A stretch of 64,000 nucleotides of DNA from Erysipelotrichia bacterium. GTDB lineage: Bacteria > Bacillota_I > Bacilli_A > Erysipelotrichales > Erysipelotrichaceae. Under the pieces are notes generated by a model. The model ran no database searches. It was given only the letters and a program-made list of their open reading frames with translations, and was not told the origin of the DNA. The DNA is taken from contig JAGXSD010000030.1 in assembly GCA_018333955.1 (NCBI GenBank), positions 62,001 through 126,000 on the forward strand. The letters run 5' to 3'. A program made the translations under genes and the position numbers. Below are positions 21,336 through 44,205 of the stretch, one piece after another (position 1 is the first letter of the stretch; each line of letters begins with the position of its first letter).

Positions 21336-24071
21336 TTATATTTTTTTAAATTGAATTCTATGAATATTTAATCCATTTTGCGGGAATGAGAAGGTAAGTT
21401 TCTGAACGCCTGTTGAAAGTTTTAATTGCTTCTCACGCATCATCCAATGACCGTCTGTCCCATTAAACACAAAGGTTGCCACAAACTTATCATTAATGAG
21501 TACATTCACTGGTATTTGCGCTAATGGATTTAGATTTGCGCGTGTATTGAAGTTTAACGCATATAGGCCACCTTCGACCACATCAAGTTCAAAGCTCTTC
21601 TCATTCCCTGATGTAGTATCTACTCCATCCAATGAAATTTGTGTTCCATCCTCAATTCTAATGCTCTTTGCACTGGCTTGTCCCTGTGAAGTTGTCTCAT
21701 CATCAACAATTTCCTCACCTCTTAAAAGACGTGCAAATGCTTCAGATTGAAGCAACACATGACAGATATTCTTAGCACAACGTTGAAGTTCACCACGAGT
21801 GAGTATTCCTTGTTCTAAAGCTTCTAAGGTATTATCTTTATTACTATTTTCTTTCGCATTCTCTACAACCATGTAGACATCATTTTGCGCACGCACCATA
21901 GCCTTTGTATTTTTAACAGTGGCTGGTCCCCCTTCATCATTAAGTTTGGCCCACCAGTCGGTCATGACAAATCCACTGAAACCCCATTGTTTGCGCAAAA
22001 TCGTAGTATTTAAATCATAATTACTTGCAGCCCAGATTCCATTGACTGCACTATAGGAGGTCATAATTGAGCGCGCATTAGCTTGCTTCACAGCCATTTC
22101 ATATCCTTTAAGATATATTTCACGCAGTGCTCTTTCAGAAATAATACAATCAATATCATGACGAGCTGTTTCTTGATTATTCGCAGTAAAGTGTTTCAAT
22201 GTACCACTTGCTCCAACTGAATGCATTCCTTTGGTTTGAGCTACCGCCATTGATCCTGTAAGGAATGGATCTTCTGAGAAGTACTCAAAGTTTCGACCAT
22301 TAAGTGGATTACGATGAATATTGATACCAGGACCTAAGAGGAAATCAACCTTATTAAGTAGTAACTCTTTCCCTTCCATTTGGTAAAGCTGTTCAATCAG
22401 TGGTGTATTCCATGTGCATGCCATCAAAGTTCCATTAGGTAAGCTTGTCGCAATCGTGCCACAGTCCATACGAACGCCTGAAGGACCATCTGCACAACAA
22501 GCAATAGGCAGACCATATCCTAGAAGTTCTTTAGTGACTCCACCAAATGCGGATGCGGTTCCTGGAGTGACTTTAGGGCTACTCATGCCTTCTCCACGAA
22601 CAATATTGGCTAAGTCTTCATCACTCAACTGAGCAACAAACGCATCCATACTTACTTTTCCATCCGCAACGTCACTAAGTTTATAACCTAAATCACCCGT
22701 ATATGGTATTTCTTGAGGTAGTCGCTCTTGCATACGTTGTGATAAATCATAGCTTCGTAGTGGAACATCTTCATAGGTTAGAAGGATTTCACCATCTTCA
22801 AGTTCTGGTTTAATGCGTGTAAATGGTGTAACTGGCGCAAGGGCTGATTCAAGTTTCTCAACCACCACAGTAGTAGGCAGTTTGATGGTTAGTGCCTTAT
22901 TAGTATGACGAACACTATGTCCTACATGGATGTCATATGCTCCTTCTTCTAAGACAAAACAATATGGATGTCCAGTTGCACCACTATCATCAAAGGAAGC
23001 ACATTCTTTAAGATCGAATTCAAATGATAATACTTCAGATTGGTGTGGCTTTAGTAAAGTACTCTTCTTAAAGGACACTAAAGTTTTTAATGGTTTCCCT
23101 AATTTGCCCATAGGAGCACTTGTATAGACTTGAACAACTTCTTTACCTGAACAATGACCTGTATTGGTCACTAAGACATCAATAAGCACACGATGTTCTT
23201 TGTAATGTGAATTTAATACTTCAATATTGAATGTTGTGTAGGATAGTCCATATCCAAATGGATACAGAACGCGATCCTTTGCAAACGTTTCAAAGTATCG
23301 GTATCCTACATAAATATCTTCTTGGTAAAAGTTATAGTCTTTACGTCCAAAATTACGAGTTGAGAAGACATCTTCTAACTCATAAGAAATTGTATTCGCA
23401 AGTTTTCCACTTGGACTTACTTTTCCAGTAAGAACATCCGCAACAGCTCCTCCTCCTTCCATGCCACCTTGCCAGACATAAATCACAGCAGGCACATGAA
23501 GTTCATCAACCCATTTCATATCAATGATGTTGCCTACGTTAAGCACCACAGCACAACGTTTGAAATGTTTTGAGACTTTCGCAATCAAATCAAGTTCAAT
23601 CCTTGTCAGTAAGTAACTGCCCTCTTCATTGCGTGCATCTTGATCTTCACCGGCAGTGCGACCAATGATGACAATCGCAATATCATTTCGCTTTGAAGCT
23701 TCTAAAACAAGTTCATGTGAAACTTCCATTTCTTTTTGAGACCATGGTTCTTGACCCCACCCTGCACCTTTTTCAAACGGATGTTCACTCACCCAAGATT
23801 CATAAACTTGAGCTAAGGTTTCATCCACGTGGACTCGTCCACTTTGTCTTAATCCATCGAGAATATTGATGGTGTAATCAACATTCACCAATCCTCCTGA
23901 ACCGGTACCACTCTTATAGTAACTGTTTTGGATACGTCCAAATACAGCTACTTTTTCGTTGTGGCAGATCGGTAAAGATTGGTGATCATTCTTAAGTAAT
24001 ACTGCCCCTTCTGCCGCAACAATTCGTGCAAACTCTGCAAATCCTTCTAAACGACTTTGATTGTATTCCAT
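21336..24071 (-). CDS. Domain-permuted GH3 beta-glucosidase
   Basis: 911 aa, no signal peptide, so cytoplasmic. The domain order is swapped. The C-terminal-type GH3 domain comes first (about 10-250: EGAVLLKND, VAVFGR, VVLNVG, YVWQGGMEGG), then a fibronectin-III-like domain (about 270-390, after VLYPFGYGLSYTTF), then the catalytic TIM-barrel domain (about 470-790: CADGPSGVR, LGPGINIHRNPLNGRNFEYF, TLKHFTANNQE) with the nucleophile Asp about residue 705 in VMTDWWA. A final beta-rich domain (about 800-911) may bind carbohydrate. Permuted GH3 enzymes of this kind are known from Ruminococcus albus and Butyrivibrio. It probably hydrolyses imported gluco-oligosaccharides. A cre/LacI-type palindrome lies in its promoter region. 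Confidence 0.92.
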   Translation of the reverse strand: MEYNQSRLEGFAEFARIVAAEGAVLLKNDHQSLPICHNEKVAVFGRIQNSYYKSGTGSGGLVNVDYTINILDGLRQSGRVHVDETLAQVYESWVSEHPFEKGAGWGQEPWSQKEMEVSHELVLEASKRNDIAIVIIGRTAGEDQDARNEEGSYLLTRIELDLIAKVSKHFKRCAVVLNVGNIIDMKWVDELHVPAVIYVWQGGMEGGGAVADVLTGKVSPSGKLANTISYELEDVFSTRNFGRKDYNFYQEDIYVGYRYFETFAKDRVLYPFGYGLSYTTFNIEVLNSHYKEHRVLIDVLVTNTGHCSGKEVVQVYTSAPMGKLGKPLKTLVSFKKSTLLKPHQSEVLSFEFDLKECASFDDSGATGHPYCFVLEEGAYDIHVGHSVRHTNKALTIKLPTTVVVEKLESALAPVTPFTRIKPELEDGEILLTYEDVPLRSYDLSQRMQERLPQEIPYTGDLGYKLSDVADGKVSMDAFVAQLSDEDLANIVRGEGMSSPKVTPGTASAFGGVTKELLGYGLPIACCADGPSGVRMDCGTIATSLPNGTLMACTWNTPLIEQLYQMEGKELLLNKVDFLLGPGINIHRNPLNGRNFEYFSEDPFLTGSMAVAQTKGMHSVGASGTLKHFTANNQETARHDIDCIISERALREIYLKGYEMAVKQANARSIMTSYSAVNGIWAASNYDLNTTILRKQWGFSGFVMTDWWAKLNDEGGPATVKNTKAMVRAQNDVYMVVENAKENSNKDNTLEALEQGILTRGELQRCAKNICHVLLQSEAFARLLRGEEIVDDETTSQGQASAKSIRIEDGTQISLDGVDTTSGNEKSFELDVVEGGLYALNFNTRANLNPLAQIPVNVLINDKFVATFVFNGTDGHWMMREKQLKLSTGVQKLTFSFPQNGLNIHRIQFKKI

Positions 24072-24176: not shown

Positions 24177-25058
24177 ATGAAAAAATCTATTCCTTTAATA
24201 TTGCTTTTGTTAGCCTCAGCATGTGCTCCTAAGCCCCCTGTTGTGACTCCTCCAAATAACTGTAAATCAACGGGCTATACCTATGATTTAGAAGATCTGA
24301 CTTATGAACTTGTCTGGTCGGATGAATTTGATGTGGATGGAGAACCCGATCCACAGAAATGGTCATACGATGTAGGAGGACATGGTTGGGGTAATCAAGA
24401 ACTTCAATATTACACAAAAGGTGAGAATGTTGAAGTTAAAGATGGAAAACTAGTCATTGAAGCTCGCAAGGAAACTCGAGGTCCGAATGCTTTCACCTCG
24501 ACTCGCTTAGTAAGCAAAAACAAAGGTGATTTCCGTTATGGTAAGTTTGAAGTGTATGCTAAACTTCCAGATACTTTAGGATCATGGTCTGCGGTATGGA
24601 TGCTTCCAACCGTGAACCAATATGGTGGATGGCCAAGATCGGGAGAAATCGATATCATGGAGTATGTCGTCCAAGATTTAAATATCGTTCATGGCACAGT
24701 TCATACTGGTCGATACAATCATATCGATGGCACCCAACAAGGATTCTCACGATCACTTCATGATGTCAGTAATACATTCCACTTATACACAATCGAATGG
24801 CTTCCTGATCAAATACGTTATTATCTCAATGGAGAATTTGTATATCGATTTAAACCTTCTTTATTTATCACTTGTCCAACAAGTCAACATTGGCCATTTG
24901 ATATTCCATTCCACCTTATCTTTAATATCGCCGTCGGTGGTTCATGGGGTGGTGCACGTGGTGTTGCCGAGGAAGGTTGGCCTACAACCATGGAAATAGA
25001 TTACATTCGTGTATATCAAGCTGTGGAAATGAATGACATTATTGAAAACAGAAGGTAA
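24177..25058 (+). CDS. GH16 endo-beta-1,3-glucanase (laminarinase type) lipoprotein
   Basis: 293 aa. A lipoprotein signal peptide ends near LLASAC (Cys16), followed by a Pro-rich linker, so it should be anchored outside the membrane. The GH16 domain begins at LVWSDEFDVDG and has the catalytic GEIDIMEYV (E-x-D-x-x-E, nucleophile and acid/base). WSAVWMLP and FDIPFHLIFNIAVGGSWGG are typical of bacterial laminarinases. It starts beta-glucan breakdown at the cell surface. It is first in a two-gene operon with GH30. A signal-less paralogue lies at 42392-43105. The SD GAAAGAGAG precedes the ATG. Confidence 0.93.
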   Translation: MKKSIPLILLLLASACAPKPPVVTPPNNCKSTGYTYDLEDLTYELVWSDEFDVDGEPDPQKWSYDVGGHGWGNQELQYYTKGENVEVKDGKLVIEARKETRGPNAFTSTRLVSKNKGDFRYGKFEVYAKLPDTLGSWSAVWMLPTVNQYGGWPRSGEIDIMEYVVQDLNIVHGTVHTGRYNHIDGTQQGFSRSLHDVSNTFHLYTIEWLPDQIRYYLNGEFVYRFKPSLFITCPTSQHWPFDIPFHLIFNIAVGGSWGGARGVAEEGWPTTMEIDYIRVYQAVEMNDIIENRR

Positions 25059-25067
25059 AGGAATCCT

Positions 25068-26531
25068 ATGAATATGAAACAACTATTAACTGCAGGTTTA
25101 AGCTCTATGATGGTGGCATGTGTCCCAAATACACCTGAACCAAGTGAACCCGACAAAGTCTATTCGATTGAAGGTCCAGTCTCAGTGTATATGTCTACTG
25201 TCGATCAGACACATCTTTTTACTCAAGTTGAAGATGCTCAGCTCTTTTTAAAACAAGACGCACCCTCATCTGGATTTGATATCACCCTCAATCCAAACAA
25301 GCAATTTCAAACTATTTTAGGCTCTGGGGCATCCTTTACAGATTCTTCGGCTTATCTTATCAATCAGGTGTTGTCCTTAGAAGATAAAGAAGACTTAATG
25401 AAGAAACTTTTCGATCGTGAAGAAGGCATTGGTTTATCCTTTATTCGTCAACCGATGGGAGCTTCTGATTTTGCACGGACCATGTATACCTATAATGATC
25501 GTCCAAAAGGTGAAACTGATGAATCTTTAGAATACTTTTCAATCGATCATGATCGTGCAGATATTATCCCTTTACTTAAACAAGCTTTAGAACTCAATCC
25601 TTCCATTAAGATTATGGCCAGCCCATGGACTGCGCCTGGATGGATGAAGTCTACTGATCATTGGATTGGTGGTCAACTTAATCCTCAAAACTATGAAGTG
25701 TATGGACAATACTTTGCCCGTTTCATTCAAGCCTATCAAGCAGAAGGTCTTGATATTTATGCCATTACTCCTCAAAATGAACCGTTATATGTTCCTGCAC
25801 ATTATCCAGGAATGGGCATGAATGCCATGCAACAAACCAATTTCATACGACGTGGTCTTGTCCCTGCTTTTCAAAAAGCTGGACTAGATACCAAGATTCT
25901 CATTTATGATCACAACTGGGATCGTAAGGACTATCCTTTAGATATCTTACGCACTATACCCGAACTTGTTTCTGGAGTGGCTTGGCATGTTTATGGGGGT
26001 CAAGTGAATGCCATGTCTGAAGTTGTACGTGAATTCCCAAATCATGATGTTTACTTCACAGAAGCTTCTGGTGGAGAATGGGTACCTCCTTTTGAAGCAG
26101 CCTTCCTTGGAGCTATTAAAACCGGTATTGATGTCTTTAGAAACTACTCTAAGACCTATGTCATGTGGAATTTTGCACTTGATGAGAATAATGGACCTGT
26201 AGTCCCTGGATTTGGACGGAGTACCGTTCGTGGTATGGTGACCATTAATCAAGAAACAAAAGAACTTACCTATAATCTTGATTACTATGTTCTAGCGCAC
26301 TTCAGTAAATTCACTCAACAAGATGCGATCCGGATTGACTCTACAAGGGCAGAAGGGAACTTTACAAGTGTTGCATTTCTCAACCCGGATCAAAGCGTGA
26401 ACTTGGTGGTCTACAACATGGCCAACCAATCACGAAATGCTTTAATTCACTTAAATCAACAAACGATTGTCGTCCCTATGCAAGGCAAGGGAGTCGCAAC
26501 CATAACTTTCAAACTACAAAGCGAAGACTAA
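25068..26531 (+). CDS. GH30 glucanase lipoprotein (probable endo-beta-1,6-glucanase)
   Basis: 487 aa. A lipoprotein signal with MMVAC near residue 18 is followed by a Pro/Glu linker. The GH30 (beta/alpha)8 domain shows GSGASFTDSSA, IMASPWTAPGWMKS, the acid/base Glu in ITPQNEP and the nucleophile Glu in YFTEASGG, followed by a C-terminal beta domain. GH30 covers glucosylceramidases, beta-1,6-glucanases and xylanases; the laminarinase partner favours beta-1,6-glucanase acting on branches, which is inference. It starts 9 bp after the GH16 stop; SD AAAGGAA. A hairpin terminator follows the stop. Confidence 0.9.
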   Translation: MNMKQLLTAGLSSMMVACVPNTPEPSEPDKVYSIEGPVSVYMSTVDQTHLFTQVEDAQLFLKQDAPSSGFDITLNPNKQFQTILGSGASFTDSSAYLINQVLSLEDKEDLMKKLFDREEGIGLSFIRQPMGASDFARTMYTYNDRPKGETDESLEYFSIDHDRADIIPLLKQALELNPSIKIMASPWTAPGWMKSTDHWIGGQLNPQNYEVYGQYFARFIQAYQAEGLDIYAITPQNEPLYVPAHYPGMGMNAMQQTNFIRRGLVPAFQKAGLDTKILIYDHNWDRKDYPLDILRTIPELVSGVAWHVYGGQVNAMSEVVREFPNHDVYFTEASGGEWVPPFEAAFLGAIKTGIDVFRNYSKTYVMWNFALDENNGPVVPGFGRSTVRGMVTINQETKELTYNLDYYVLAHFSKFTQQDAIRIDSTRAEGNFTSVAFLNPDQSVNLVVYNMANQSRNALIHLNQQTIVVPMQGKGVATITFKLQSED

Positions 26532-26555: not shown

Positions 26556-28328
26556 TTATCGTGTTTTTAATCCATAACCAATGTCAAATAAGATTTGATT
26601 CACATCACGTTGAGAGTTTTGCGAACTGATAACATCGGTATTTGATGTTTTTGGCCATGTGAATGGTAATTTCCCCGTAAAATCTAAATCTCCATAGAGG
26701 ACATCGGTAATCCCTGCGGCTTCACTTCCATAAAGCCATGCCATGACAAAGGCATCCCAGTCCTTAAGTTCTTCATGAATAAGTCTTGGACGTCCTGCTG
26801 TTAAAATGGTCACAACAGGTTTATTGCTTGTTTTCGCGAAGTTAATGGCGTCTTGATTATCAGGATGCATCATCGACCCAGTTAATGATAAATCAGTGGC
26901 ATCCCCGACTTCTTCTGCGTATGGAAGTTCAGCCAAGGCTAGAATAACCACGTCAACTTCATTGATTTTGCTTCTATCGGTGGTAATCATCCCACCATGA
27001 GCTGAAGCGACGGCTTCAAAGGCTTTCTTAAGTGTCGTTGCTTGAGGTAAGTTTTGACTTGAATTTTCACCTTGCCAGCTAAATGTCCAACCTCCACTTG
27101 CTAAACCTGCATTATCTATTCCTGGACCAATCAAGAGAATTTTTGCGGTTTTTTGAAGTGGTAACACTTGATTTTGATTTTTCAGTAGGACTAATGATTT
27201 CGCAACGGCTTCTCTTGCTAGGGCTTTGTGTTCATTTGAATTAATAACTGATTCATTGGCCATTTCAAAGGTATTATCAAGAAGTCCAAGTTGAGTCTTA
27301 ACATACATGACTCTCTCATACGCATCATCAATACGCTCACGTGAGATATCATTATTTTTAACTGCTCTAAACATGGTATCAACCACTGACTTCCAATTAA
27401 ATGGTTGCATCAACATATCAATCCCTGCATTCATGGATTGGACAATTTGTTGGTAAAGAGATCCTTCTAATTGATGAATCGCTTCCCAATCACTAATGAC
27501 TAAACCTTTAAAACCAAGTTCTCCTTTGAGGACATCCGTAATCCAATATTTAGATCCATGGAGTTTTTCACCATTGATACTACTATAGGAAATCATCACC
27601 GTTAATACTTCACCTTCTTGGATCGCCTCGTAATATGGGTAAAGATGGATTCTTCTTAACGTTTCTTCATCAAGAGGAGCATCCCCTTGATCTAGTTTGT
27701 ATCCCGAATCTGGATTAAACTTAGTTGCCCCATCAGCTAGGAAGTGCTTTGCGGTGGCTGCAATCCCTGTGGATTGTAGCCCTTTGATATAAGCTAGTCC
27801 TAATGAAGACACAATATTATGGTCTTCAGAATAACTTTCATACGTTCTTCCCCAACGAATATCTTGAGCTACTGCGAGTGTTGGCGCAAAGTTCCAGTGA
27901 ACTCCGGTGGCTGAGACTTCTTTTCCAGTCGCAACTCCAATGCGATAAAGTAGATCCTCATCTTGAGTTGCCCCTAATCCAATATTATGAGGAAAGATCG
28001 TTGCCCCTTTTAGATTATTATGCCCATGCACTGCATCGACACCATAGATGATTGGTGTTGGGGATTGCTTTTGGTATTGAGAGACTAGATTTCTCCATCC
28101 AGCCGCATTATTACTGGTAGGATGAGATCCTCCCCCACTTAGAACTGAACCTAAGGTATATTCTAAGCTATCCACATACGCAAAGTTATTACGCTCAGCT
28201 TGCACAAGCTGCGCAATCTTTTTAAATAATACTTCATCTTCATTAACTTCAATGGGTTTTGGAGCACATCCCGCAATCAACGTAAGTGTTAATAATATGC
28301 TAATCCATTTTTTAAAGTGAGAAATCAT
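26556..28328 (-). CDS. GH3 beta-glucosidase lipoprotein, canonical domain order
   Basis: 590 aa from the ATG at 28328, chosen because GGAGG lies 9 nt upstream and because it gives a clean lipoprotein signal (SILLTLTLIAGCAPKP). Upstream in-frame codons overlap the GH5 gene and are not expected to be used. GH3 features: IYGVDAVHGHNN, FAPTLAVAQDIRWGRTYESY, TAKHFLADG, nucleophile Asp in GLVISDWEAIHQ, then the second domain (SLVLLKNQNQVLPL, GSEAAGITDVLYGDLDFTGK). It would release glucose or short oligomers outside the cell. It is the last gene of a nine-gene operon and overlaps GH5 by 17 bp. Confidence 0.92.
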   Translation of the reverse strand: MISHFKKWISILLTLTLIAGCAPKPIEVNEDEVLFKKIAQLVQAERNNFAYVDSLEYTLGSVLSGGGSHPTSNNAAGWRNLVSQYQKQSPTPIIYGVDAVHGHNNLKGATIFPHNIGLGATQDEDLLYRIGVATGKEVSATGVHWNFAPTLAVAQDIRWGRTYESYSEDHNIVSSLGLAYIKGLQSTGIAATAKHFLADGATKFNPDSGYKLDQGDAPLDEETLRRIHLYPYYEAIQEGEVLTVMISYSSINGEKLHGSKYWITDVLKGELGFKGLVISDWEAIHQLEGSLYQQIVQSMNAGIDMLMQPFNWKSVVDTMFRAVKNNDISRERIDDAYERVMYVKTQLGLLDNTFEMANESVINSNEHKALAREAVAKSLVLLKNQNQVLPLQKTAKILLIGPGIDNAGLASGGWTFSWQGENSSQNLPQATTLKKAFEAVASAHGGMITTDRSKINEVDVVILALAELPYAEEVGDATDLSLTGSMMHPDNQDAINFAKTSNKPVVTILTAGRPRLIHEELKDWDAFVMAWLYGSEAAGITDVLYGDLDFTGKLPFTWPKTSNTDVISSQNSQRDVNQILFDIGYGLKTR

Positions 28329-29328
28329 GGGGTAATACCTCCGCCTCGACGAGCTTTCTAAAGTTCCAATTAAAACTATCGGATGAAATCTTATAGTTCC
28401 AGAAGAACCATCCATAACCACGCTCAAAAGCAAGCAGTTGGTTAGCACTAAAGCTTCTTAAAGCGAGATGAGTATTGAATCGATCAACATCCTTGAAATG
28501 TTGCGGATTAAGTCCAAGTGACCATTCTCCCACAACACAACGAACAATCTTCGATACACGATCAATGACTTCAATCTGTTCTTGAAGTGGATATTTAAGA
28601 TTAAACTCAAGGCTTGATTTATTAAACTTATCATCAAAGCATTGATACAAGTGTAAATCTAGGATGACATTCTCAAGGGGTTGTGTTTTAAAGAAATCTT
28701 CCCACACATCATTTCTAAATGAATCATGAAATACGATGGTGTGATGTGGCTTTAAAATCTTTCTTAAGCGATGATGCACATCGATATAAAACTGCTTAAT
28801 GATATTGATATCAATCGTCCAATGAGGTTCATTGAGTGCTTCTATTCCCCAAAGAGCTGGATGATCTTTATATCGCTCGGCCACTTTTTCAAGAACTTCT
28901 ATGGTCTTTTCAATATTAGCTGGGTCATGATGCCAAGTTAAGACCCCTTCAATTCCACCATTATCAAAACCGTTTTGGCATCCTGGTGCAGTGTGTAAAT
29001 CAAGAAGTACAGGAATTTGATATTTATGAGCCCAATCCATGGCTAAGTCTAGCCATGGTAGGCATGAGAAGTATGGTTCATCTTCACCAAATACCCACCA
29101 AGGAAATGGAAGTCGCACACAATTTATCTTGTGTTTTGCCAACCAGATAAAATCATCTTCAGTAATAAAAGTAGACCAATGATGCTTTAAGAAATCATGT
29201 GCCGAAGGCTTTTGTAGGGAGAATGCGGTTTCATCTTTTCCATTCACCCCTTCAAATAGTTCCTTTGACATCCAACGCTCTAAGACTAACCATCCCCCTA
29301 AATTGACACCACGAACTTTTTCCAACAT
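28312..29328 (-). CDS. GH5 glucanase (exo-beta-1,3-glucanase-like), cytoplasmic
   Basis: 338 aa without a signal peptide. It opens with RGVNLGGWLVLERWM, the start seen in yeast exo-1,3-beta-glucanases of GH5. Acid/base Glu is in GIEALNEPHW, the nucleophile Glu in CVVGEWSLGL; other GH5 marks are CVRLPFPWWVFGE and LLDLHTAPGCQNGFDNGG. It probably acts on imported beta-1,3/1,6 gluco-oligosaccharides. SD GGAG lies 7 nt before the ATG, and the gene starts 2 bp after the permease stop, within the operon. Confidence 0.9.
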   Translation of the reverse strand: MLEKVRGVNLGGWLVLERWMSKELFEGVNGKDETAFSLQKPSAHDFLKHHWSTFITEDDFIWLAKHKINCVRLPFPWWVFGEDEPYFSCLPWLDLAMDWAHKYQIPVLLDLHTAPGCQNGFDNGGIEGVLTWHHDPANIEKTIEVLEKVAERYKDHPALWGIEALNEPHWTIDINIIKQFYIDVHHRLRKILKPHHTIVFHDSFRNDVWEDFFKTQPLENVILDLHLYQCFDDKFNKSSLEFNLKYPLQEQIEVIDRVSKIVRCVVGEWSLGLNPQHFKDVDRFNTHLALRSFSANQLLAFERGYGWFFWNYKISSDSFNWNFRKLVEAEVLPHDFSL

Positions 29329-29330
29329 GT

Positions 29331-30302
29331 TTATTCTCCTGTGATTCCTGTCTTTTCAATACCTTCCACAAACTGTTTCTGAACGAAGATGTACATAATC
29401 ATCATAGGAGCCATCGTGATTAATGTGGCGGCCATCTTAAATGATTCATTAATTCTAAATTGTCCTCCAGGAGCTCCTGGAACACTTGCTGACATCCGCT
29501 CAAAGATGGAGTCAAAGAGTGATAATTGTAAAGGCATCAACTTCATTGCGGAGCGGACAAAGGTTGAGGTGATATAACTTTCATTGTAGTTCCACACAAA
29601 TGAGAACAAGAATACGGTCGCAATAGTGGGCACTGACATCTTAAGGATGATATGAAAGAAGACTTGCCATGAGGTTGCACCATCAATGCGAGCAGCTTCA
29701 TCAAGGCTAATTGGAATCATCTTAAAGAAGTTAAGGAATATGAGGATGAGGATGGCTGAATACACCCCTTGACCTAGAATGGTCATGAGTAATTGTGGAT
29801 ATAACGTTCCAATGATTTTAAATCCTGTTAAGTTTTGAACAGTTGTGAACATCATCCATCTTGGAATTAAAACTAGCGGTACTGGAATCACAAATGACAT
29901 GAGAATCATCAAGAACCAGAAATTTTTAAACTTAAATTGATATCTCGCAAAGGCAAATCCAGTCATTGCGGAAACAAAGGTTTGCGCTAAGGCAAGTGAA
30001 CCAGAGAACCACAATGAATTGAAGATTGTATTGGGCATATCCATGACTGACCATGCCACTCTTAAGTTCATCAATGACCAAGATTGTGGCACCCAATCAA
30101 TTTCAGGATTGATGAGATCGGCAGTAGACATAAAGGTCATTGAAAGCATTCTTAATAATGGATATAGGAAGACATAGGCTATCGCAATGAGCAATACATA
30201 GACTGCAGAGCGATATATCCAACCATCGGTCATATGATGACCCATAAGTTTGCCTTTAATTGCGCTCTCATTCCACACAAACTTTTGTCGTTTAGCTTCC
30301 AT
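29331..30302 (-). CDS. Carbohydrate ABC transporter permease, MalG type
   Basis: 323 aa with six hydrophobic segments. The EAA loop EAARIDGATSWQVFFHIILKM is the ATPase contact of sugar importers. An ATG at 30302 with AGGTGG 5 nt before it is preferred to an upstream GTG at 30311. The C-terminus includes an insertion (SVPGAPGGQFRINESFKMAA) before the last helix. It pairs with the permease gene just upstream (30292-31287), which it overlaps by a few bases. No ATPase gene is in the locus. Confidence 0.88.
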   Translation of the reverse strand: MEAKRQKFVWNESAIKGKLMGHHMTDGWIYRSAVYVLLIAIAYVFLYPLLRMLSMTFMSTADLINPEIDWVPQSWSLMNLRVAWSVMDMPNTIFNSLWFSGSLALAQTFVSAMTGFAFARYQFKFKNFWFLMILMSFVIPVPLVLIPRWMMFTTVQNLTGFKIIGTLYPQLLMTILGQGVYSAILILIFLNFFKMIPISLDEAARIDGATSWQVFFHIILKMSVPTIATVFLFSFVWNYNESYITSTFVRSAMKLMPLQLSLFDSIFERMSASVPGAPGGQFRINESFKMAATLITMAPMMIMYIFVQKQFVEGIEKTGITGE

Positions 30303-31287
30303 GTTTGCCACCTACCTTTCTTAGTCGTAGATTTTGCCACTTTTCTTTACGTTGCATACGTTTGATGCGTTTTTGTTCTTTCTCAGCTTGTTCTTTACGC
30401 TCATCGACGACATATTCATCTTTTGATTTATCTTTTAAGACTGCATAGATGATGCCAATCAAGACAAGGATAGTGATACTGTAGATCCATGCATAGGATG
30501 ATGCGACTCCAAGTCCACCGACTGTATCAAAGATTGCATTTTGAATCATGCCATACACTGGATTAATTGGGAACATTCCTAGTGATACGACTGTGAATAT
30601 GGCTGCCACCAGCACAATAGGACGAATAATCGGCATTGTGATCTTCCAAAGAATTTGCCATGAGGTAGCTCCATCAATTTGAGCCGCTTCATATAAGTTA
30701 GTATTAATCTTTTGAAGTCCACTAAGGAATAAAACAATCGGAATCCCCGTAAACCATAGTACTAAGGCAAAGTTATTAAAGAGGAACACGATAACATCCG
30801 CAAGTTGAGGACTATAACTTTCGATAATCTGATATACAAAGATACGACGCACATTACCAATCTGAACATTACCTGAGCTCATCAACTGATTCATGACTGA
30901 ACCTGAGATGACAATGACTGGTAAGAAATAAATAACGCGGAATGTTGTTCGAAACTTAAACTTACCATTGAGTAACAGCGCAAGAATAAATGAAATAATA
31001 AGGATTGTTGGCACATACACAATCTCAGTTAGGAAGAATTGGATAAGTGCTGGGGTAAAATCAGGATTTCTTAAGAATGCGGTCACATAGTTTTCAATGC
31101 CATTGAAGGACGTACTCCAACCCAAGACATTTAACGTAACTTTATGAAAACTTAAATATACGGTGTAAAGAAATGGGAAGAGTGTAAAGATAAAGAATCC
31201 GATAAGCCATGGTAAGAGGAAGGTATAACCAAGACGATTTTGTTGCTTCTCGAAATATTTGCTTGGTTTATTTTTTCTAGTTTTCAT
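30292..31287 (-). CDS. Carbohydrate ABC transporter permease, MalF/UgpA type
   Basis: 331 aa with about six hydrophobic segments, EAA loop EAAQIDGATSWQILWKITMP, and a highly basic, Glu/Lys-rich tail after the last helix. It starts in an ATGA overlap with the DUF5696-like gene; SD GGAGG. It forms the second permease pair of the locus with the gene at 29331-30302. Whether this pair uses the solute-binding protein at 40561 or that at 37497 cannot be told from sequence. Confidence 0.87.
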   Translation of the reverse strand: MKTRKNKPSKYFEKQQNRLGYTFLLPWLIGFFIFTLFPFLYTVYLSFHKVTLNVLGWSTSFNGIENYVTAFLRNPDFTPALIQFFLTEIVYVPTILIISFILALLLNGKFKFRTTFRVIYFLPVIVISGSVMNQLMSSGNVQIGNVRRIFVYQIIESYSPQLADVIVFLFNNFALVLWFTGIPIVLFLSGLQKINTNLYEAAQIDGATSWQILWKITMPIIRPIVLVAAIFTVVSLGMFPINPVYGMIQNAIFDTVGGLGVASSYAWIYSITILVLIGIIYAVLKDKSKDEYVVDERKEQAEKEQKRIKRMQRKEKWQNLRLRKVGGKHGS

Positions 31288-33650
31288 GGTTGAACCTCCA
31301 TCATGATGGCTTTCGCAGATTGTGCATTCACTGTGGTATTCATCACATTGACGTTTGATTCTGTGTAATTAATGATGACGGCCATGTTATTATCATACAC
31401 GTTCATGATGACGCCATTCTCAAGCACAATGCGATCAATCCATTTCGCATGGGTCACTTGTTTTAAAGCATCATTGACTTCACGATAAATTGATTGAATT
31501 AAATCTTGGTATTGAACATATTCTGTGGAATAGAATCTCGCAGAGTTTGTTAAGGTAAGTTGATAAGAAGGTTCATGAGTTAATACAAATGAAGGTGATA
31601 AGTTGTAGTCAATCATTCGCAGCACATCTTGTTTTGTGTAGAATGAGAAATTGGAATATGGCGCAAACATCTCCATGTTGTTATTGATGACGAGTTGTAA
31701 GAAAGGAACCGTATCGGTTTGAATGAGGAACTGGCTTGAATACACTGGGGCTTGCAGGAATCGATCGACATATTTCCATAGATATTCATTTGGCGTTGTA
31801 GCCGCAATACTCCAGTTCTCATACATCTTCTCAAAGGTTGATTGATATAAATCAATTGTCTTGTGGACTTCAGATCCTTCTTTAGAGTATTCACTCATAA
31901 GGATGTTAGGAATTCCTTCTACTGTGAGTGAATCATACCCAAGACGAGATAATTTTTGGCTTTGTTCAAGTAACCATCGTGCACTCACTGAAGGGCGTGC
32001 ATAACCAAATAAAGTCACTGGCATGGTATCTCTTAATCGATATTCTAGATACCAACCATTCATGTGTTTTGCGGCTGTATTTAAGTAATTCACTTGATCT
32101 CGATGGATTGTGACATAATCTTGCGACATTGAGACATCATATCCAATAGACTTCGCAAAATCATTGAGAGCTTTGAAATCATTTTGTGATCCAATCGCTC
32201 GTTTCCATGTTGTTCTTCCAGGATGTCCACTAGTGATCCCCCCACGTTGCCATCCTAATAATCCACTACTGACATGATTAATTCCTTTATCTTTTATGTC
32301 AGTGAGAATATCTTTCACTTGATTCGCAGTGGTCGCAATCACATCTTCTAATCCAAATACACTGCGTTTAATATCTGACATGACAAAATCAAGTCGAATA
32401 GGAATATCTCCACGACTTCGAGTAGTGGTTGGTAAACCATCATTCGCTTTTAAATAATCACGGTATTTTAAGGCCATTCCCACATAATCAGCTGGATAAC
32501 CATCTTCTTTTCCATCATTAGCTAAAAAATCATATCTCATTGACATATCAAAATGATTCCGATCGTCCATGAGTTTGAAGTATCCATCTCCACGACGGTT
32601 ATAGACTTGATGGAATAATTTATTAATTTCAAAGCGTGGGTAGGCAAAGGTATAGTTAGTTAGATTTTGCTCTGGAGAAACAATAATATTCATGTATTCT
32701 CCACCAGAAGTTGCGTAAGCTACAAATGCCGCTTGACGATTTCCATGCGCAATTCCAAAAACTGGCATCATTGGAGATTTTAATGGCAAGTAGGACGTTT
32801 CTCGTGTGTAATAGAAATCACTTTCCGCAAGGTCTTCACCATAAACATTTCCATTATACGATGTCAAACTAGTGTTATGGTCCACAAAACGGATGAGTGC
32901 ACCTGGTCCATCAGGAACTAAAACATATCCATCAAGTTTTGGATTAGGTACAATGCGTCGATAAGCATATTGTTCTGGATCCCAGAAAGCTTTTGCGCCT
33001 CCGGATGCCCCCATAAATGGTGTCAACATGATTCCCGCAAGTGAGCGAACTCCAGTTCCCGTAATGTCTTCATCACGGATTTCATAACGAATTCCTTCAT
33101 CATCAAAGTAAATATGCATTTTGATTTCAATGCTTAATAATTCGAAATTCACATCAAGGCGGCGATGATTAGGATTGTTATTGACGGTGGCAAGTCTTGA
33201 GGTCACTCCCGCATCAGAAGCACTGGATAAACGACGAATAGACGATGAATTATCGTAGTACTCTACAGTGAGTAATGAATTCGCAATCCCTGTATACGTG
33301 GTATTTAAACGATCTTCAAGTGGTGCGCAATTAATCTTTTCTTCATCAGGAACTAAGTTACATGCCTCTTCTAAATATCGATTAAATTCAATATCAATTC
33401 CTGTTTTCCAAAGATATCCATTTCGTTTATCTTTGATTGCGATAATATCTCGATCTTCACGATAGAAATAACTTAAGTATTCTGTCTCATATAGAAGTTC
33501 AAACTCATCTGGTTGAAGATCATCATAGGTGATCGTTTCTGGTGGTAATCCAGTGTCATGAGAGGTTGGGATATATACTGATGCCATAATCGCTGATACC
33601 GTTAATCCCAACATTAGGATTAATAATACAATGATTTTAGTTCGTGACAT
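31284..33650 (-). CDS. Large exported protein resembling DUF5696 proteins; possible uncharacterised glycosidase
   Basis: 788 aa with an N-terminal signal anchor (about 5-27) and no further membrane helix, so most of it should lie outside the membrane. The N-terminal half is beta-rich. The region from about 400 to 690 alternates helices and strands in a TIM-barrel-like way (IPIRLDFVMSDIKRS, GINHVSSGLLGWQRGG, IGYDVSMSQDYVTI, LGYDSLTVEGIPNIL, APYSNFSFYTKQD). The overall build recalls DUF5696 proteins, which commonly sit beside sugar ABC permeases. Acidic residues in candidate active-site strands are suggestive but unproven. It overlaps the NHL/YIP1-like gene by 14 bp and the next permease by 4 bp. 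Confidence 0.72.
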   Translation of the reverse strand: MSRTKIIVLLILMLGLTVSAIMASVYIPTSHDTGLPPETITYDDLQPDEFELLYETEYLSYFYREDRDIIAIKDKRNGYLWKTGIDIEFNRYLEEACNLVPDEEKINCAPLEDRLNTTYTGIANSLLTVEYYDNSSSIRRLSSASDAGVTSRLATVNNNPNHRRLDVNFELLSIEIKMHIYFDDEGIRYEIRDEDITGTGVRSLAGIMLTPFMGASGGAKAFWDPEQYAYRRIVPNPKLDGYVLVPDGPGALIRFVDHNTSLTSYNGNVYGEDLAESDFYYTRETSYLPLKSPMMPVFGIAHGNRQAAFVAYATSGGEYMNIIVSPEQNLTNYTFAYPRFEINKLFHQVYNRRGDGYFKLMDDRNHFDMSMRYDFLANDGKEDGYPADYVGMALKYRDYLKANDGLPTTTRSRGDIPIRLDFVMSDIKRSVFGLEDVIATTANQVKDILTDIKDKGINHVSSGLLGWQRGGITSGHPGRTTWKRAIGSQNDFKALNDFAKSIGYDVSMSQDYVTIHRDQVNYLNTAAKHMNGWYLEYRLRDTMPVTLFGYARPSVSARWLLEQSQKLSRLGYDSLTVEGIPNILMSEYSKEGSEVHKTIDLYQSTFEKMYENWSIAATTPNEYLWKYVDRFLQAPVYSSQFLIQTDTVPFLQLVINNNMEMFAPYSNFSFYTKQDVLRMIDYNLSPSFVLTHEPSYQLTLTNSARFYSTEYVQYQDLIQSIYREVNDALKQVTHAKWIDRIVLENGVIMNVYDNNMAVIINYTESNVNVMNTTVNAQSAKAIMMEVQP

Positions 33651-35674: not shown

Positions 35675-36544
35675 CTATTTCATTCCAGAATGGCTCATGG
35701 TGTTCATGACCTTCGATTGAAGCGCAATAAAGATGAATAAATTAGGTAAGAACATAATCAAACCTGCTGCTGCCGCCATGCCTACGCCCGCAATCGAGTT
35801 TGAAGCATTGGTTAAAGAACTTAGGTAGAATGCAAAGTTTTTTAATGTTTCATTAGTAATGTAAAGCGCTGAAGCTTCAGTGGCATTCCAGGAAACTTGG
35901 AAAGTTAAAATCCCTACAGTCGCTAAAGCAGGTCTGACTAAAGGTATGACGATTTTTGTAAGTATTTGCCAATCATTTGCACCGTCTAAACGTGCTGCTT
36001 CAATCACCGCATCTGGTACTTGATCCATAAACTGTTTGACTAAAAATAATCCTACAGGTAGTGCTAAAGCAGGAAGGATGTGAGCTAAGAAATTATCTGT
36101 TAATCCTGTTTGTTTAATAATGAGATAGCGAGGAATTGCTACCGCAATCGGAACAAACATCAACGCCACTTGGTTTACACTAAACAACCAATTTTTTGCT
36201 TTGAATTTCTTCTTAGATAAAATATACGCTGCACCTGCGGTTACCATGATTGATAAGAACACTGTTGCGGAGGTTGCCACGATGGAGTTAAACAAATAAC
36301 GTGTCATCGGTACACCCGTTGTGGAGGAAGTACGCCATAAATCCGTGAAATTTTGGAAAGTTGGTTTAATCACAAAAAAGCGTGGAGGAAACATAAATAG
36401 TTCATCCAAAGGTTTGAATGCTTGGTTAATGATATACACCACTGGTAAGATCATGAATAATGCCATCGGAATCAAGAAGAAGTAGAACTTCAACTGTGAC
36501 TTATCAAATCGCTTAGGATTAATCTTTGTGCCTTGAAATGCCAT
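35675..36544 (-). CDS. Carbohydrate ABC transporter permease, MalG type
   Basis: 289 aa from the ATG at 36544, chosen because AGGAGG lies about 7 nt upstream; a longer frame starting at 36586 would overlap the preceding gene. Six hydrophobic segments; EAA loop EAARLDGANDWQILTKIVIP. It pairs with the permease at 36558-37493, 13 bp upstream, to form the first permease pair of the operon, next to the 967-aa solute-binding protein. Confidence 0.88.
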   Translation of the reverse strand: MAFQGTKINPKRFDKSQLKFYFFLIPMALFMILPVVYIINQAFKPLDELFMFPPRFFVIKPTFQNFTDLWRTSSTTGVPMTRYLFNSIVATSATVFLSIMVTAGAAYILSKKKFKAKNWLFSVNQVALMFVPIAVAIPRYLIIKQTGLTDNFLAHILPALALPVGLFLVKQFMDQVPDAVIEAARLDGANDWQILTKIVIPLVRPALATVGILTFQVSWNATEASALYITNETLKNFAFYLSSLTNASNSIAGVGMAAAAGLIMFLPNLFIFIALQSKVMNTMSHSGMK

Positions 36545-36557
36545 ATGTTTTTCCTCC

Positions 36558-37493
36558 TTATCGATCCGAGAATAGGCGATATGCAAGTTTGGAGAAGCCC
36601 CAAACCATTAATAATAGTGCTACTGAAATCGCAGCTGCATATCCCATCTCATAACGTTGAAATCCATAGTCCTCAATATGGTTAATAATCAACTGCCCCG
36701 CATATTGAGGTGTGGGGTTAGACCCCGATAATGCAACACCAATCCAACCACTGTTAAACGCTCCCACAATCGCCATGACTGCACCAAACAACATTTGTGA
36801 GTGCATAGAAGGAATAGTGATATAAATGACTTCTTGAAGTTTGTTTTTGATACCATCCATATAAGCTGCTTCATAAAGCTCTTCATTGGTATTGATAATC
36901 CCAGCCAACATAGCTAAGAATCCAATCCCCATAGCACTCCATAACCCAACAATAATCATGATGTTCATAAGGTAAGCTGGATCTTGTAAGAACTGTAATG
37001 GTTTGGTAATCCAACCCCATTGAATAAGTAAAGCATTGATATAACCAGCTTCATTCCCTGAAAATAACGTTCTCCAAACTACCGCAATAAATACACCTCC
37101 CACCATGGAGGGTGTATAGATAGCTAAAGCTAATACAGTACGTGGCTTAACTTGAATTTGAGCTAACATCCAAGCTAAGAAGAAAGACAAGAAATATCCA
37201 CCTGGGCCTACAATAAGTGAGTACTTAAAGGTGTTAGGTAAAACATATTTTAAGAAGATTTCATCTTGAGTTAAGAGCGTGATGTAATTAAGTAGCCCTT
37301 GAAACTCTGGAAATTGAATTGAGTTAAAGTAAGTTAGTGATAATCCAATGGCTATCGCCACTGGAACAGCCACAAAGAGCGAAAACATTAATGCATATGG
37401 AAGCAACATCCAAAAAATCGCGAACCATTCACCTAAAGTTCCATTTTGATATCGACGAGCAATATCACTAGATATTTTTTTCATTGGTGCCAT
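36558..37493 (-). CDS. Carbohydrate ABC transporter permease, MalF type
   Basis: 311 aa with six hydrophobic segments. The EAA region reads [21 protein letters not shown], somewhat unusual because NKLQE replaces the common TxWQ. It starts 3 bp after the stop of the solute-binding protein gene; GGAG lies about 9 nt upstream. A second Met three codons in is possible. It should form an importer with the next permease and the large solute-binding protein. Confidence 0.87.
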
Positions 37494-40560: not shown

Positions 40561-42171
40561 TTATTCGAAATCTGAAGCTTTACGTCCGTAGAATTGGATT
40601 AATCCTTGGCGTAATGCATTTGAAGATTCATCAAAGCGTTGGTTGAACGCAGTATTCCAATCACCTAATTTAGATTTAACATTGTCTGCCCAGTTAGCAT
40701 CAGTGCGGCTTGCACCAGCAACTTCTGGATTCCACATATTTAACCATTCGTATAGGATTGGTCTACTTGCACCTTCAAAGTTGTAAGTCCATGGGTATGC
40801 TTTGTCAGAGACTGCCCAGAATTGTCCAGCTTCCCAAATACGTAATACTTCGTGGAAACCAGGCATACGGTTAGGATCTTTAAATCTTGCATGGTTTGGA
40901 GTTGAGAACCAAATATCCATTTGTTTTTGGAATTCTTCACCAGTAACTAATGGGAATGAGTCATTTAATGCAGTTTTTAGAATTTCGCCATCTAAGAACA
41001 TTTGATCAGCGCGAGCTTGCATTGAACGAGTATCACCAGCCCAGAATGCTGCGAAAGTATAAGCTAATTTTGTTTTAGCTGTTTCTTCTTCAGTACATTC
41101 AGGATTGCCATCAAGCATACAGTAGTTGTAAACAGCTAGAGGGTCAAGTACTACACCAACAGTGTTTGGTTGATAAGGTGTAGATGGACGAGGATAGATA
41201 TCCCAGTCAGCTGATTTACAAACACCCCAGTGGTTAGGATCTGGATTAGCACAGTCGCCCATCATCCAAGGATCTCCACCATTAGTTAAAATCTTGTTTT
41301 CCATAAAGAATTTGAATGACCACCACCAGTTAGCGTTCATGACTTCGTCAGAAACTAAACCAAGGTCTCTTTGTGGCCAAATAGCTACTCTAGACCAACG
41401 TGGGATATAGTCGATTAAAGCTTTAACTTGATCATTATTCACGTCAACAAATGCACCTGAACCATTATAGTTGAACATTTGTTGTTCAAAAGTAGTAGTT
41501 CCAGTACGGATAAAGTCAAATTCTGTGTCCATTGTTCCCCAGAAATTAACACCATCAGCTTTAGCAATAAAACTTGTATATTGTTCGATTGTCCAAGTAG
41601 GTCCTGGAACGTCAATATTATTGTCTTCTGCTAAGGCTTTATTAATGTAAACTCCCCAAGGTTGTAGGAATTGAGGAACTCCAGCTTGGAATCCATAATA
41701 GTTCATCATACCCATTACGGAAGTGTTGAAGGTTTTGTATAGTGGGTCATCTTTAAATTGTGACAAGTCAGCTACTAAACCTCTAGAAATGTCTCCAACT
41801 AAATCTGTACTAGCATAAACATCAGGGTATTTACCATATTCAGCTTTGAAGTTTTCTAGCTCTTGTTGCCAGCTTACTCCATTGTCGTTTGGTCCACCAC
41901 TCTTAGCAAATACATTAATCTTAACGTTTGGATAAAGTTGATTGAAAGCTTTTGCGACCGCATAAGCAGCTGCATTATTTTGTCCTTTCAAATCTTCCGG
42001 TGCTAATTCTTTACGTCCGATATCTTCCATATAAGTGCCGTCGCCGGACCAAAGCATGATTGTGATTTCACCTTCTACTTTGGAGTCAAGTTGTTTATAA
42101 CTTGGAGCACAGCCTGTCAACATGGAAGAGATTAGAACGATAGAGAATAATAAAACGATTATCTTCTTCAT
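40561..42171 (-). CDS. Extracellular solute-binding lipoprotein (carbohydrate ABC importer)
   Basis: 536 aa from the ATG at 42171, where AGGAGGGA sits just upstream and a typical lipoprotein signal begins (VLLFSIVLISSMLTGCAPS, Cys21). Upstream in-frame codons overlap the promoter and are rejected. Family-1 binding-protein features: EITIMLWSGDG near the start, FNQLYPNVKINVF, YPDVYASTDLVGDISRG, NIDVPGPTWTIEQYTSF. It is transcribed alone between an operator-bearing promoter and a strong terminator, so it can be made in excess over the permeases, as is common for binding proteins. Confidence 0.9.
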   Translation of the reverse strand: MKKIIVLLFSIVLISSMLTGCAPSYKQLDSKVEGEITIMLWSGDGTYMEDIGRKELAPEDLKGQNNAAAYAVAKAFNQLYPNVKINVFAKSGGPNDNGVSWQQELENFKAEYGKYPDVYASTDLVGDISRGLVADLSQFKDDPLYKTFNTSVMGMMNYYGFQAGVPQFLQPWGVYINKALAEDNNIDVPGPTWTIEQYTSFIAKADGVNFWGTMDTEFDFIRTGTTTFEQQMFNYNGSGAFVDVNNDQVKALIDYIPRWSRVAIWPQRDLGLVSDEVMNANWWWSFKFFMENKILTNGGDPWMMGDCANPDPNHWGVCKSADWDIYPRPSTPYQPNTVGVVLDPLAVYNYCMLDGNPECTEEETAKTKLAYTFAAFWAGDTRSMQARADQMFLDGEILKTALNDSFPLVTGEEFQKQMDIWFSTPNHARFKDPNRMPGFHEVLRIWEAGQFWAVSDKAYPWTYNFEGASRPILYEWLNMWNPEVAGASRTDANWADNVKSKLGDWNTAFNQRFDESSNALRQGLIQFYGRKASDFE

Positions 42172-42202
42172 CTTGTCCCTCCTGTGGATTACTTCTAAAT
42201 TC

Positions 42203-42231
42203 ATATTATCATGGTACGAAAACGTTTTCAA
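42203..42231 (-). promoter_or_regulatory. Promoter with overlapping operator for the 536-aa binding protein
   Basis: Minus strand TTGAAA (42231-42226), 17-nt spacer, TAATAT (42208-42203). The palindrome GAAAACGTTTTC (42218-42229) overlaps the -35 and spacer. Confidence 0.65.
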
Positions 42232-42391: not shown

Positions 42392-43105
42392 TTATTGGTA
42401 AACTCTAATAGATTCAACTTCTAGTGTTGCTGGTAAACATGAGTAGTCAATGGGTCCACCGAATCCTCCACCCATCGCAACGTTTAGTATTAAGTAGTGA
42501 GGTTTATCAAATGGCCATGAATCTGCATAGTCTTTCTTATAGAAGACGCATTGTACAACTCCATCGACTTCAAATGCAATTTTCTCTTCGTCCCAATCTA
42601 AAGCATAATCATGAAATTCTTCACTTACACCTTTATACTTGACCACATGAGTAATCTGAGTACGATCACGATGGTTGTATTTACCAGTATGAAGACTGAA
42701 GTGAAGAGTATCTTGATCACGACCCACATGTTCGATGATATCAATTTCTCCCATGTGAGGCCATCCATGATTCTCTTCATCAATGCCTAACATCCATACC
42801 GCTGGCCAAGTTCCTTGTCCAGCAGGTAGTTTAGCACGAATCTCAAAGCGACCATAAAGCCAATGTTGTTTTCCACGACTTACTAAACGTGTCGAAGTAA
42901 TTGGGCTACCTTTCATTTCTTGTGCACGCGCTGTAATCACTAATTTGCCATCTTTAATGATGACATTATCCGGATTAGCCTTGGTGTAATATTGAACTTC
43001 TCGATTACCCCAACCCTTTCCTCCTACATCATAATCCCAATGATTTTCATTAGGTAAGCCATCTTGTTCGAAGTTCTCTTCAAACACTAAAACACGATCT
43101 TTCAT
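42392..43105 (-). CDS. GH16 beta-1,3-glucanase without signal peptide
   Basis: 237 aa, starting directly with the GH16 fold (RVLVFEENFEQDG). It keeps the catalytic GEIDIIEHV and the substrate-cleft segments WPAVWMLG and LILNVAMGGGFGG. It is a paralogue of the secreted lipoprotein at 24177-25058 (both have VGG.GWGN.E.QYYTK and V.KDGKLVI.AR). The lack of any signal sequence suggests cytoplasmic action on long imported oligosaccharides, or release by an unknown route. SD GGAGG, 9 nt before the ATG. Promoter with two operators. Confidence 0.9.
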   Translation of the reverse strand: MKDRVLVFEENFEQDGLPNENHWDYDVGGKGWGNREVQYYTKANPDNVIIKDGKLVITARAQEMKGSPITSTRLVSRGKQHWLYGRFEIRAKLPAGQGTWPAVWMLGIDEENHGWPHMGEIDIIEHVGRDQDTLHFSLHTGKYNHRDRTQITHVVKYKGVSEEFHDYALDWDEEKIAFEVDGVVQCVFYKKDYADSWPFDKPHYLILNVAMGGGFGGPIDYSCLPATLEVESIRVYQ

Positions 43106-43183: not shown

Positions 43184-43205
43184 GAAAAAAAGGAGAAATC
43201 TCCTT
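43184..43205 (-). terminator. Terminator of the second LacI-type regulator
   Basis: AAGGAGA/TCTCCTT arms (43190-43196, 43199-43205), then TTTTTTC on the minus strand. It overlaps the stop codon at 43204. Confidence 0.7.
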
Positions 43206-44205
43206 ATTTATCTTTGACTCTTGAAGTGGATGAGCGAACTATAAGTTTTGTTGGAATGAGCGTCTTAACCTCAACTCGCTTATTATTAATCCGTCGATGA
43301 AGTATCTGAGCTAAGGTCTTTCCAATCGATTTACGATCTTGTTTTACTGTAGTTAAAGTTGGGTGAGTATGTTTCGCAAGTTCTATATCATCAAACCCAA
43401 TAACTGAAACATCTTCTCCAACTTTTAGTCCACGCTCACTGATTGCACGATAAGCACCTAATGCTGTTAAGTCACACATAGCAAATACTGCTGTAGGTGG
43501 ATTTGGCAAGTCTAACAACTGCTGCATGCACTCATATCCTGATTGGCTATCATATTCAGGTGCTTCAATCACTAAATTAGGATCATAAGGAATTCCTGCC
43601 ATTTTTAGACCTTCAAGGTAGCCCGATAATCGCTCTGATCCGGCTAATGTTGAAGGTGGACCCGCAATATGTGCTATGCGACGATGACCTAATTGAACCA
43701 AGTGGTCAATGGCTAACATACTCCCATGATGATTATCTGAATATACTAAAGGGATTGAATTGTATGGGACATCTGTGGTTACACACTTAATTTCACTATC
43801 AAATAGTGCTGTTAAATCTGTATCCATCATATCAGCGGTCACCACAAAAACACCATCTACGTTTCTAACTTGACAACGTTTCAAATATCCAATGTCACCA
43901 CCAGAAATAAACACTACATCATAGCCTAAACTTTCAATTTCACGCTTAAATGCCTCAAGAACCCCTGAGAAATAGTTATGTTCAAGACCAATGTTTAAAT
44001 GTTCAGAATAAACGATGCCAATTAGCCATGTGCGTTTGCTACTTAAAGCTCTTGCGCTAGAATTGGGTATGTAGCCAACTTCTTCCACGATCTTTAAAAT
44101 ACGCTCTTTAGTGGCATCGCTTACTTCAGTATAATTGTTTAAGACTTTGGATACTGTCGCTGTAGACACTCCTGCAAGTCTTGCTATTTCTCTTATGTCT
44201 ACCAC
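43204..44205 (-). CDS. LacI-family regulator, probable controller of the beta-glucan locus
   Basis: 333 aa, GTG start with SD GGGGAGG 9 nt upstream. HTH VDIREIARLAGVSTATVSKV, hinge helix with Leu (NSSARALSSKRT), effector domain typical of sugar-responsive members (IGIVYSEHLNIG, HRRIAHIAGP, AVFAMCDLTALGAYRA, VSVIGFDDIELA, LTTVKQD). The hinge Leu fits operators with a central CG, like the palindromes at 24121, 40504, 42218 and 43119. It is adjacent to and points toward the cytoplasmic GH16 gene. CcpA, not in this window, could share some of these sites. Confidence 0.88.
   Translation of the reverse strand: MVDIREIARLAGVSTATVSKVLNNYTEVSDATKERILKIVEEVGYIPNSSARALSSKRTWLIGIVYSEHLNIGLEHNYFSGVLEAFKREIESLGYDVVFISGGDIGYLKRCQVRNVDGVFVVTADMMDTDLTALFDSEIKCVTTDVPYNSIPLVYSDNHHGSMLAIDHLVQLGHRRIAHIAGPPSTLAGSERLSGYLEGLKMAGIPYDPNLVIEAPEYDSQSGYECMQQLLDLPNPPTAVFAMCDLTALGAYRAISERGLKVGEDVSVIGFDDIELAKHTHPTLTTVKQDRKSIGKTLAQILHRRINNKRVEVKTLIPTKLIVRSSTSRVKDK

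Follow-up and report, generated by a model that had tools for sequence, protein, structure and literature searches.

A DUF5696 protein with GH129 ancestry as a probable catalytically dead, membrane-tethered subunit of a composite ABC importer in Bacillota

The closest described homologs of the protein analyzed here are the GH129 glycosidases NagBb (PDB 5WZN) and ZgGH129 (PDB 5OPQ/8RZK), with which DUF5696 proteins share the domain layout and, judging from profile comparisons, full-length homology. Unlike these enzymes, DUF5696 proteins lack the nucleophile, the acid/base and the aspartate of the metal-site motif HVDGW, are probably tethered to the membrane and are encoded inside an importer cassette. 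The closest analogs in way of working are the heavy chains of the SLC3 family, 4F2hc/CD98hc and rBAT, in which a fake glucosidase ectodomain is partnered with a transporter (PMC8537225). The likeness consists in one membrane segment and a dead glycosidase ectodomain, and a putative link between DUF5696 and its transporter is indicated by gene linkage and co-divergence. The heavy chains differ in that they belong to GH13 rather than GH129, are eukaryotic and have an SLC7 transporter as partner instead of an ABC importer. The resemblance is thus a functional analogy and does not indicate membership of the same family. The third point of comparison is provided by CUT1 importers of the MalFG/UgpAE type. 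These have in common with the DUF5696 cassette the SBP_bac_1 domain, permeases with the EAA motif and a shared ATPase encoded in trans, whereas the cassette adds four permeases, a long solute-binding protein (SBP) carrying carbohydrate-binding modules, an NHL-TPR-YIP1 protein and DUF5696 itself as fixed parts. No paper describing DUF5696 or its cassette was found in a search of the literature available without subscription.

The locus lies in a window of 64,000 nucleotides from an Erysipelotrichia bacterium (contig JAGXSD010000030.1), and its genes are listed in Table 1. The DUF5696 gene is an open reading frame that runs from ATG to stop exactly over the coordinates given there; the plus strand of the same interval contains many stops and no gene. 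The product has a single N-terminal hydrophobic segment, in agreement with the one signal anchor proposed in the initial annotation, and neither a lipobox nor a second transmembrane segment was found in it. Among 56 relatives, one N-terminal segment is predicted in 49 and internal transmembrane segments are absent from 55. The protein is probably tethered to the membrane by its N-terminus. The resemblance to DUF5696 noticed at the outset is very strong: the Pfam model PF18952 matches residues 158–778 over model positions 6–611 of 612 with E=1.1e-145 and 487 bits, far above the curated cut-off of 25.6 bits that defines family membership. Searches of NCBIfam and a single-sequence search of PDB with the same protein gave no match. 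At its ends, the gene shares 14 bases with that of NHL-YIP1 and 4 bases with that of permease C, which suggests translational coupling of DUF5696 with its neighbors. These neighbors are part of an ABC importer and are followed by GH5 and GH3 genes, bearing out the carbohydrate role that had been proposed from the presence of permeases. Further along the minus strand, at 21336–24071, the window encodes a 911-aa GH3 protein with a reversed domain order, in which the C-terminal and Fn3-like domains precede the N-terminal barrel.

Table 1. Genes of the DUF5696 locus in the window
Feature	Coordinates	Strand	Remarks
GH16	24177..25058	+	divergent; lipobox, exported
GH30 (beta-1,6-glucanase-type family)	25068..26531	+	lipobox, exported
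GH3	26556..28448	-	cargo; no clear signal peptide
GH5	28312..29328	-	cargo; without signal peptide
Permease D	29331..30311	-	
Permease C	30292..31287	-	BPD_transp_1-like; EAA motif
DUF5696 protein, 788 aa	31284..33650	-	TM/signal segment (residues 6-24), beta-rich domain, GH129-like barrel, C-terminal beta domain
NHL beta-propeller/TPR/YIP1 membrane protein, 675 aa	33637..35664	-	Pfam; invariant member, upstream of DUF5696
Permease B	35675..36586	-	
Permease A	36558..37493	-	
Long solute-binding protein, 967 aa	37497..40400	-	lipobox LSGC; CBM35-like N-terminal half (by relatives)
Second, short solute-binding lipoprotein, 556-aa frame	40561..42231	-	PDB SBP family 1, E=6e-7
GH16 beta-glucanase	42392..43105	-	cargo; without signal peptide, predicted cytoplasmic
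LacI-type regulator	43204..44205	-	

Profile comparisons relate the DUF5696 family to GH129. When a profile built from 56 DUF5696 proteins was compared with PDB, it matched ZgGH129 (E=3e-10) and NagBb (E=7e-5), the matches including a separate one within the N-terminal beta domain. Alignment of the DUF5696 profile with four GH129 proteins in hhalign (98% probability, E=3e-13) is collinear over 463 columns, extending through the barrel and the C-terminal beta domain to the C-terminus. The AlphaFold model of the full-length protein, based on 8 sequences, reached a pLDDT of 43 and was left out of the fold search, and that of the barrel (residues 385–788), based on a shallow alignment, a pLDDT of 51 and a pTM of 0.48. 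Searching viral contigs for sequences that would deepen the alignment gained nothing. With this low-confidence barrel model, the fold search against glycosidases suggested in the initial annotation placed GH129 at the top of the Foldseek list (ZgGH129 and NagBb, E=2e-10), followed by GH13 amylases and, lower down, by the CD98 heavy chain (6i9q, E=9e-4). Foldseek scoring includes sequence, so that the GH129 match is taken as support and not as independent proof. Judged by these sequence comparisons, the DUF5696 family is a full-length homolog of GH129, composed of a beta domain, a barrel and a second beta domain, consistent with the original description of a beta-rich first half and a TIM-barrel-like second half.

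Genuine GH129 proteins are also found close to the host of the window. In related genomes, weak matches to the DUF5696 model pointed to four relatives of GH129 alpha-N-acetylgalactosaminidases (L039–L042, ~600–660 aa), which look cytoplasmic and come from genomes of the same family as the window. The L039 protein, the only one of the four that was scanned, matches NagBb (4e-147) and DUF5696 (3e-19) and also DUF6259 and GH101. The weak DUF5696 matches in other genomes that were read proved to be either GH13 amylases (L002, L043) or these GH129 relatives, and we do not count them as members of the family. A search of the phylum with PF11308, the Pfam model for GH129, yielded no match even in the genomes encoding L039–L042, and this negative result was set aside. 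A GH129 search in plasmids found nothing.

In structural work on NagBb, the nucleophile of GH129 is reported to be D435, within the motif YLD, and the acid/base E478, within SEE. The numbering is taken from our alignment, in which YLD and SEE are invariant among the four GH129 relatives. PDB entry 8RZK bears the title of a Michaelis complex with the substitution D486N, as would be expected if ZgGH129 also depends on an aspartate. Where GH129 has the aspartate of YLD, the window protein has a threonine in the strand SLTVEG, and the aligned strand in the 56 relatives reads SLTVE, GLAIQ, SVALA and similar. SEE is replaced by IAATTPNEY in the window protein and aligns with ATTP, LYQP or LSNP in relatives. 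Residues at the two positions are mostly S, T, A, G, L, N, Q and Y, and a conserved carboxylate is found at neither of them across the 56 relatives, although the alignment to GH129 is weaker through the catalytic region than over the first half of the barrel, which leaves some room for a shifted active site. The metal-site motif HVDGW corresponds to GLLGW in the window protein, and its aspartate is absent from all aligned DUF5696 relatives. The window sequence does contain the acidic residues that the initial annotation placed at plausible strand ends, but they do not amount to a catalytic pair conserved across homologs. Neither are two conserved carboxylates, the feature on which that annotation had staked its glycosidase reading, present anywhere else in the barrel across the 56 relatives. 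The most conserved acids of the barrel interchange aspartate and glutamate (24:24 at D421; 25 D versus 31 E at D681), and acids that are nearly invariant without such interchange are limited to D247 in PDGSGA (98%) and D368 (89%), both of which lie ahead of the barrel. As far as alignments can tell, DUF5696 has lost the GH129 catalytic pair, its ectodomain is probably catalytically dead and the glycosidase identity originally put forward is left unsupported.

Gene order around DUF5696 is fixed. It reads long SBP, permease A, permease B, NHL/TPR/YIP1, DUF5696, permease C, permease D in 44/44 loci with sufficient flank out of 48 examined, including two loci with a single gene for permeases C and D. 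The variable elements are a short SBP, which may precede the long one, and the NHL/TPR/YIP1 protein, which is fused or split among loci. Cassettes occur in the Erysipelotrichaceae-like lineage of the window, other Bacilli, Paenibacillus, Butyrivibrio and one genome of Oscillospiraceae. NHL-YIP1 and the long SBP are found in an identical set of 40 out of 295 genomes of the phylum, and strong DUF5696 matches are confined to those 40 and one more. In the sampled genomes, where Clostridia are represented by two loci, linkage of DUF5696 to the cassette is obligate, and there is good support for counting it among the components of the importer. The additional genome (G042, L095:7086–13047) encodes GH30, the 339-aa C-terminal half of DUF5696, permease C, permease D and GH16-CBM6; the long SBP, permeases A and B and NHL-YIP1 were not found nearby. 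This reduced cassette can be read as a remnant or as a minimal version. Several loci at first seemed to lack permease C; the cause was an overlap artifact or, at L083:7271–9178 and L087:10924–12774, fusion of permeases C and D into one protein of 636 or 617 aa. The fusion in two cassettes argues that permeases C and D form a pair.

The components of a CUT1 system are all present, namely, SBP, a permease pair with the EAA motif and a MalK/UgpC-type ATPase, the last on another contig of the genome and 56% identical to a Paenibacillus one. In the long SBP family, CBM35-like regions are recognized by Pfam in 9 out of 22 members, a PDB match covers a region of cycloisomaltooligosaccharide glucanotransferase (8e-10), and the nearest relative of the SBP domain is Listeria Lin1841 (2e-30). 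The absence of signal peptides from GH5 and from the GH16 at 42392..43105 implies import of oligosaccharides, and the GH3 proteins likewise lack a clear export signal. Taken together, the genes would provide for cutting outside the cell, import of oligomers and finishing inside of a beta-1,3/1,6-glucan, the likely substrate judging by the GH families involved.

The genes past permease D vary widely among loci and include GH16/GH5/GH30/GH3, GH144-like PF10091, SOGP phosphorylase, NamZ muramidase, NAGPA, GH13, GH35 and luciferase-like oxidoreductases. The cargo is accordingly of beta-1,3/1,6-glucan, beta-1,2-glucan, peptidoglycan, alpha-glucan or luciferase-like oxidoreductase type, so that the DUF5696 gene belongs to the importer and not to one particular polysaccharide. 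The tie to a glucan operon does not hold, therefore, and we reject a beta-glucan-specific enzyme on the same ground. When families are pooled over loci L048–L087, the peptidoglycan-type NamZ and NAGPA as well as PF10091 recur, which suggests that cell-wall fragments and beta-1,2-glucans are imported by such cassettes. One Paenibacillus cassette (L046:13506–25642) has several luciferase-like (LLM) oxidoreductases and two extra SBPs and no glycosidases; its cargo may be other than a plain glycan.

DUF5696 diverges more than any other part of the cassette, its median pairwise identity being 24% versus 41–43% for permeases A and B. The pairwise identities of NHL-YIP1 (0.96) and permease C (0.93) show the best correlation with those of DUF5696, while permeases A and B correlate with each other at 0.97; since all these values share a phylogenetic background, we use their ranking alone. 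Members more than 40% identical to the window protein all reside in cassettes with beta-glucan-type cargo, although they come from different families and one from a different class, and the other DUF5696 copies compared in those genomes are less than 30% identical to it. By this measure, the beta-glucan clade appears to track cargo across unrelated genomes. The rule is not absolute, as L068 and L084 carry GH16 cargo and fall outside the clade.

A GH129-like barrel without conserved catalytic residues and with a fixed place in the cassette is probably a part of the importer that holds glycans, not a glycosidase. The fold itself could still serve an active glycosidase or transglycosidase whose catalytic site has moved and which trims glycans where they enter the importer, with a substrate that differs by clade. 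Six barrel aspartates (D421, D426, D505, D646, D675 and D681) are invariant in the beta-glucan clade, many members have an acid two residues beyond the old nucleophile position, and fast divergence could mirror changing substrates. However, the family as a whole retains no catalytic-type pair, its barrel acids interchange D and E, the cassettes already possess dedicated hydrolases that change with the cargo, and DUF5696 also stands beside oxidoreductases. We regard such an enzyme as unlikely.

The gene overlaps with permease C and NHL-YIP1, and the tightest co-divergence with the same two proteins, would also fit a structural or trafficking subunit that makes no contact with glycans, i.e., a chaperone stabilizing permeases C and D as 4F2hc does for its light chain. 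In agreement with this, all that the G042 locus has kept of the cassette is permeases C and D and the C-terminal half of DUF5696. Yet the high divergence of DUF5696 and its cargo-tracking clades are more like those of a specificity-bearing part, and a pure scaffold need not retain a complete beta domain and barrel, making a chaperone quite improbable. The adjoining NHL propeller, TPR and multi-pass YIP1 arrangement brings to mind a surface sensor, whose glycan binding would be signaled inward through NHL-YIP1 to control transport or transcription. Pfam finds a signaling domain in neither of the two proteins, and the regulators encoded in the loci are of ordinary LacI or two-component type; a sensor is very improbable indeed.

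We favor, with reasonable but far from full confidence, the explanation that a GH129-like ectodomain, catalytically dead and tethered to the membrane, makes DUF5696 a fixed subunit, probably glycan-binding or scaffolding, of a composite CUT1-type ABC importer with four permeases. The homology to GH129, the loss of its catalytic pair, the obligate place in the cassette in the sampled genomes and the independence of cargo are all read from sequence; glycan binding by DUF5696, complex formation, its docking partners and its role in transport are what we infer from them. In the window locus, the GH16 and GH30 lipoproteins would be the surface enzymes that cut the polysaccharide, and the CBM35-like modules of the long SBP would capture the fragments. 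Docking on permeases C/D and on NHL-YIP1 as a scaffold, DUF5696 would use its old active-site cleft as a non-hydrolyzing binding site that holds or guides the chain. The permeases would then import the glycan, powered by the shared MalK/UgpC-type ATPase encoded elsewhere, and the cytoplasmic GH16, GH5 and GH3 would complete its breakdown.

More tentatively, and with somewhat less than even confidence, the cassette may represent a widespread, previously undescribed glycan importer of Bacillota that combines four permeases, a CBM-bearing SBP, NHL-TPR-YIP1 as the scaffold and, as the receptor, a dead GH129-like protein. It would have converged with the pseudo-glycosidase/transporter pairs of eukaryotes and might be the Gram-positive equivalent of SusCD in taking up long glycans. 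For DUF5696, a large family without a function so far, the descent from GH129, the loss of GH129 catalytic residues and the occurrence within one conserved cassette provide a testable system and a caution against annotating its members as glycosidases. The varied cargo of the cassette is a guide to the glycans imported by uncultured Bacillota, and, if the explanation is true, a dead enzyme on a transporter would be a striking parallel to the eukaryotic SLC3/SLC7 transporters.
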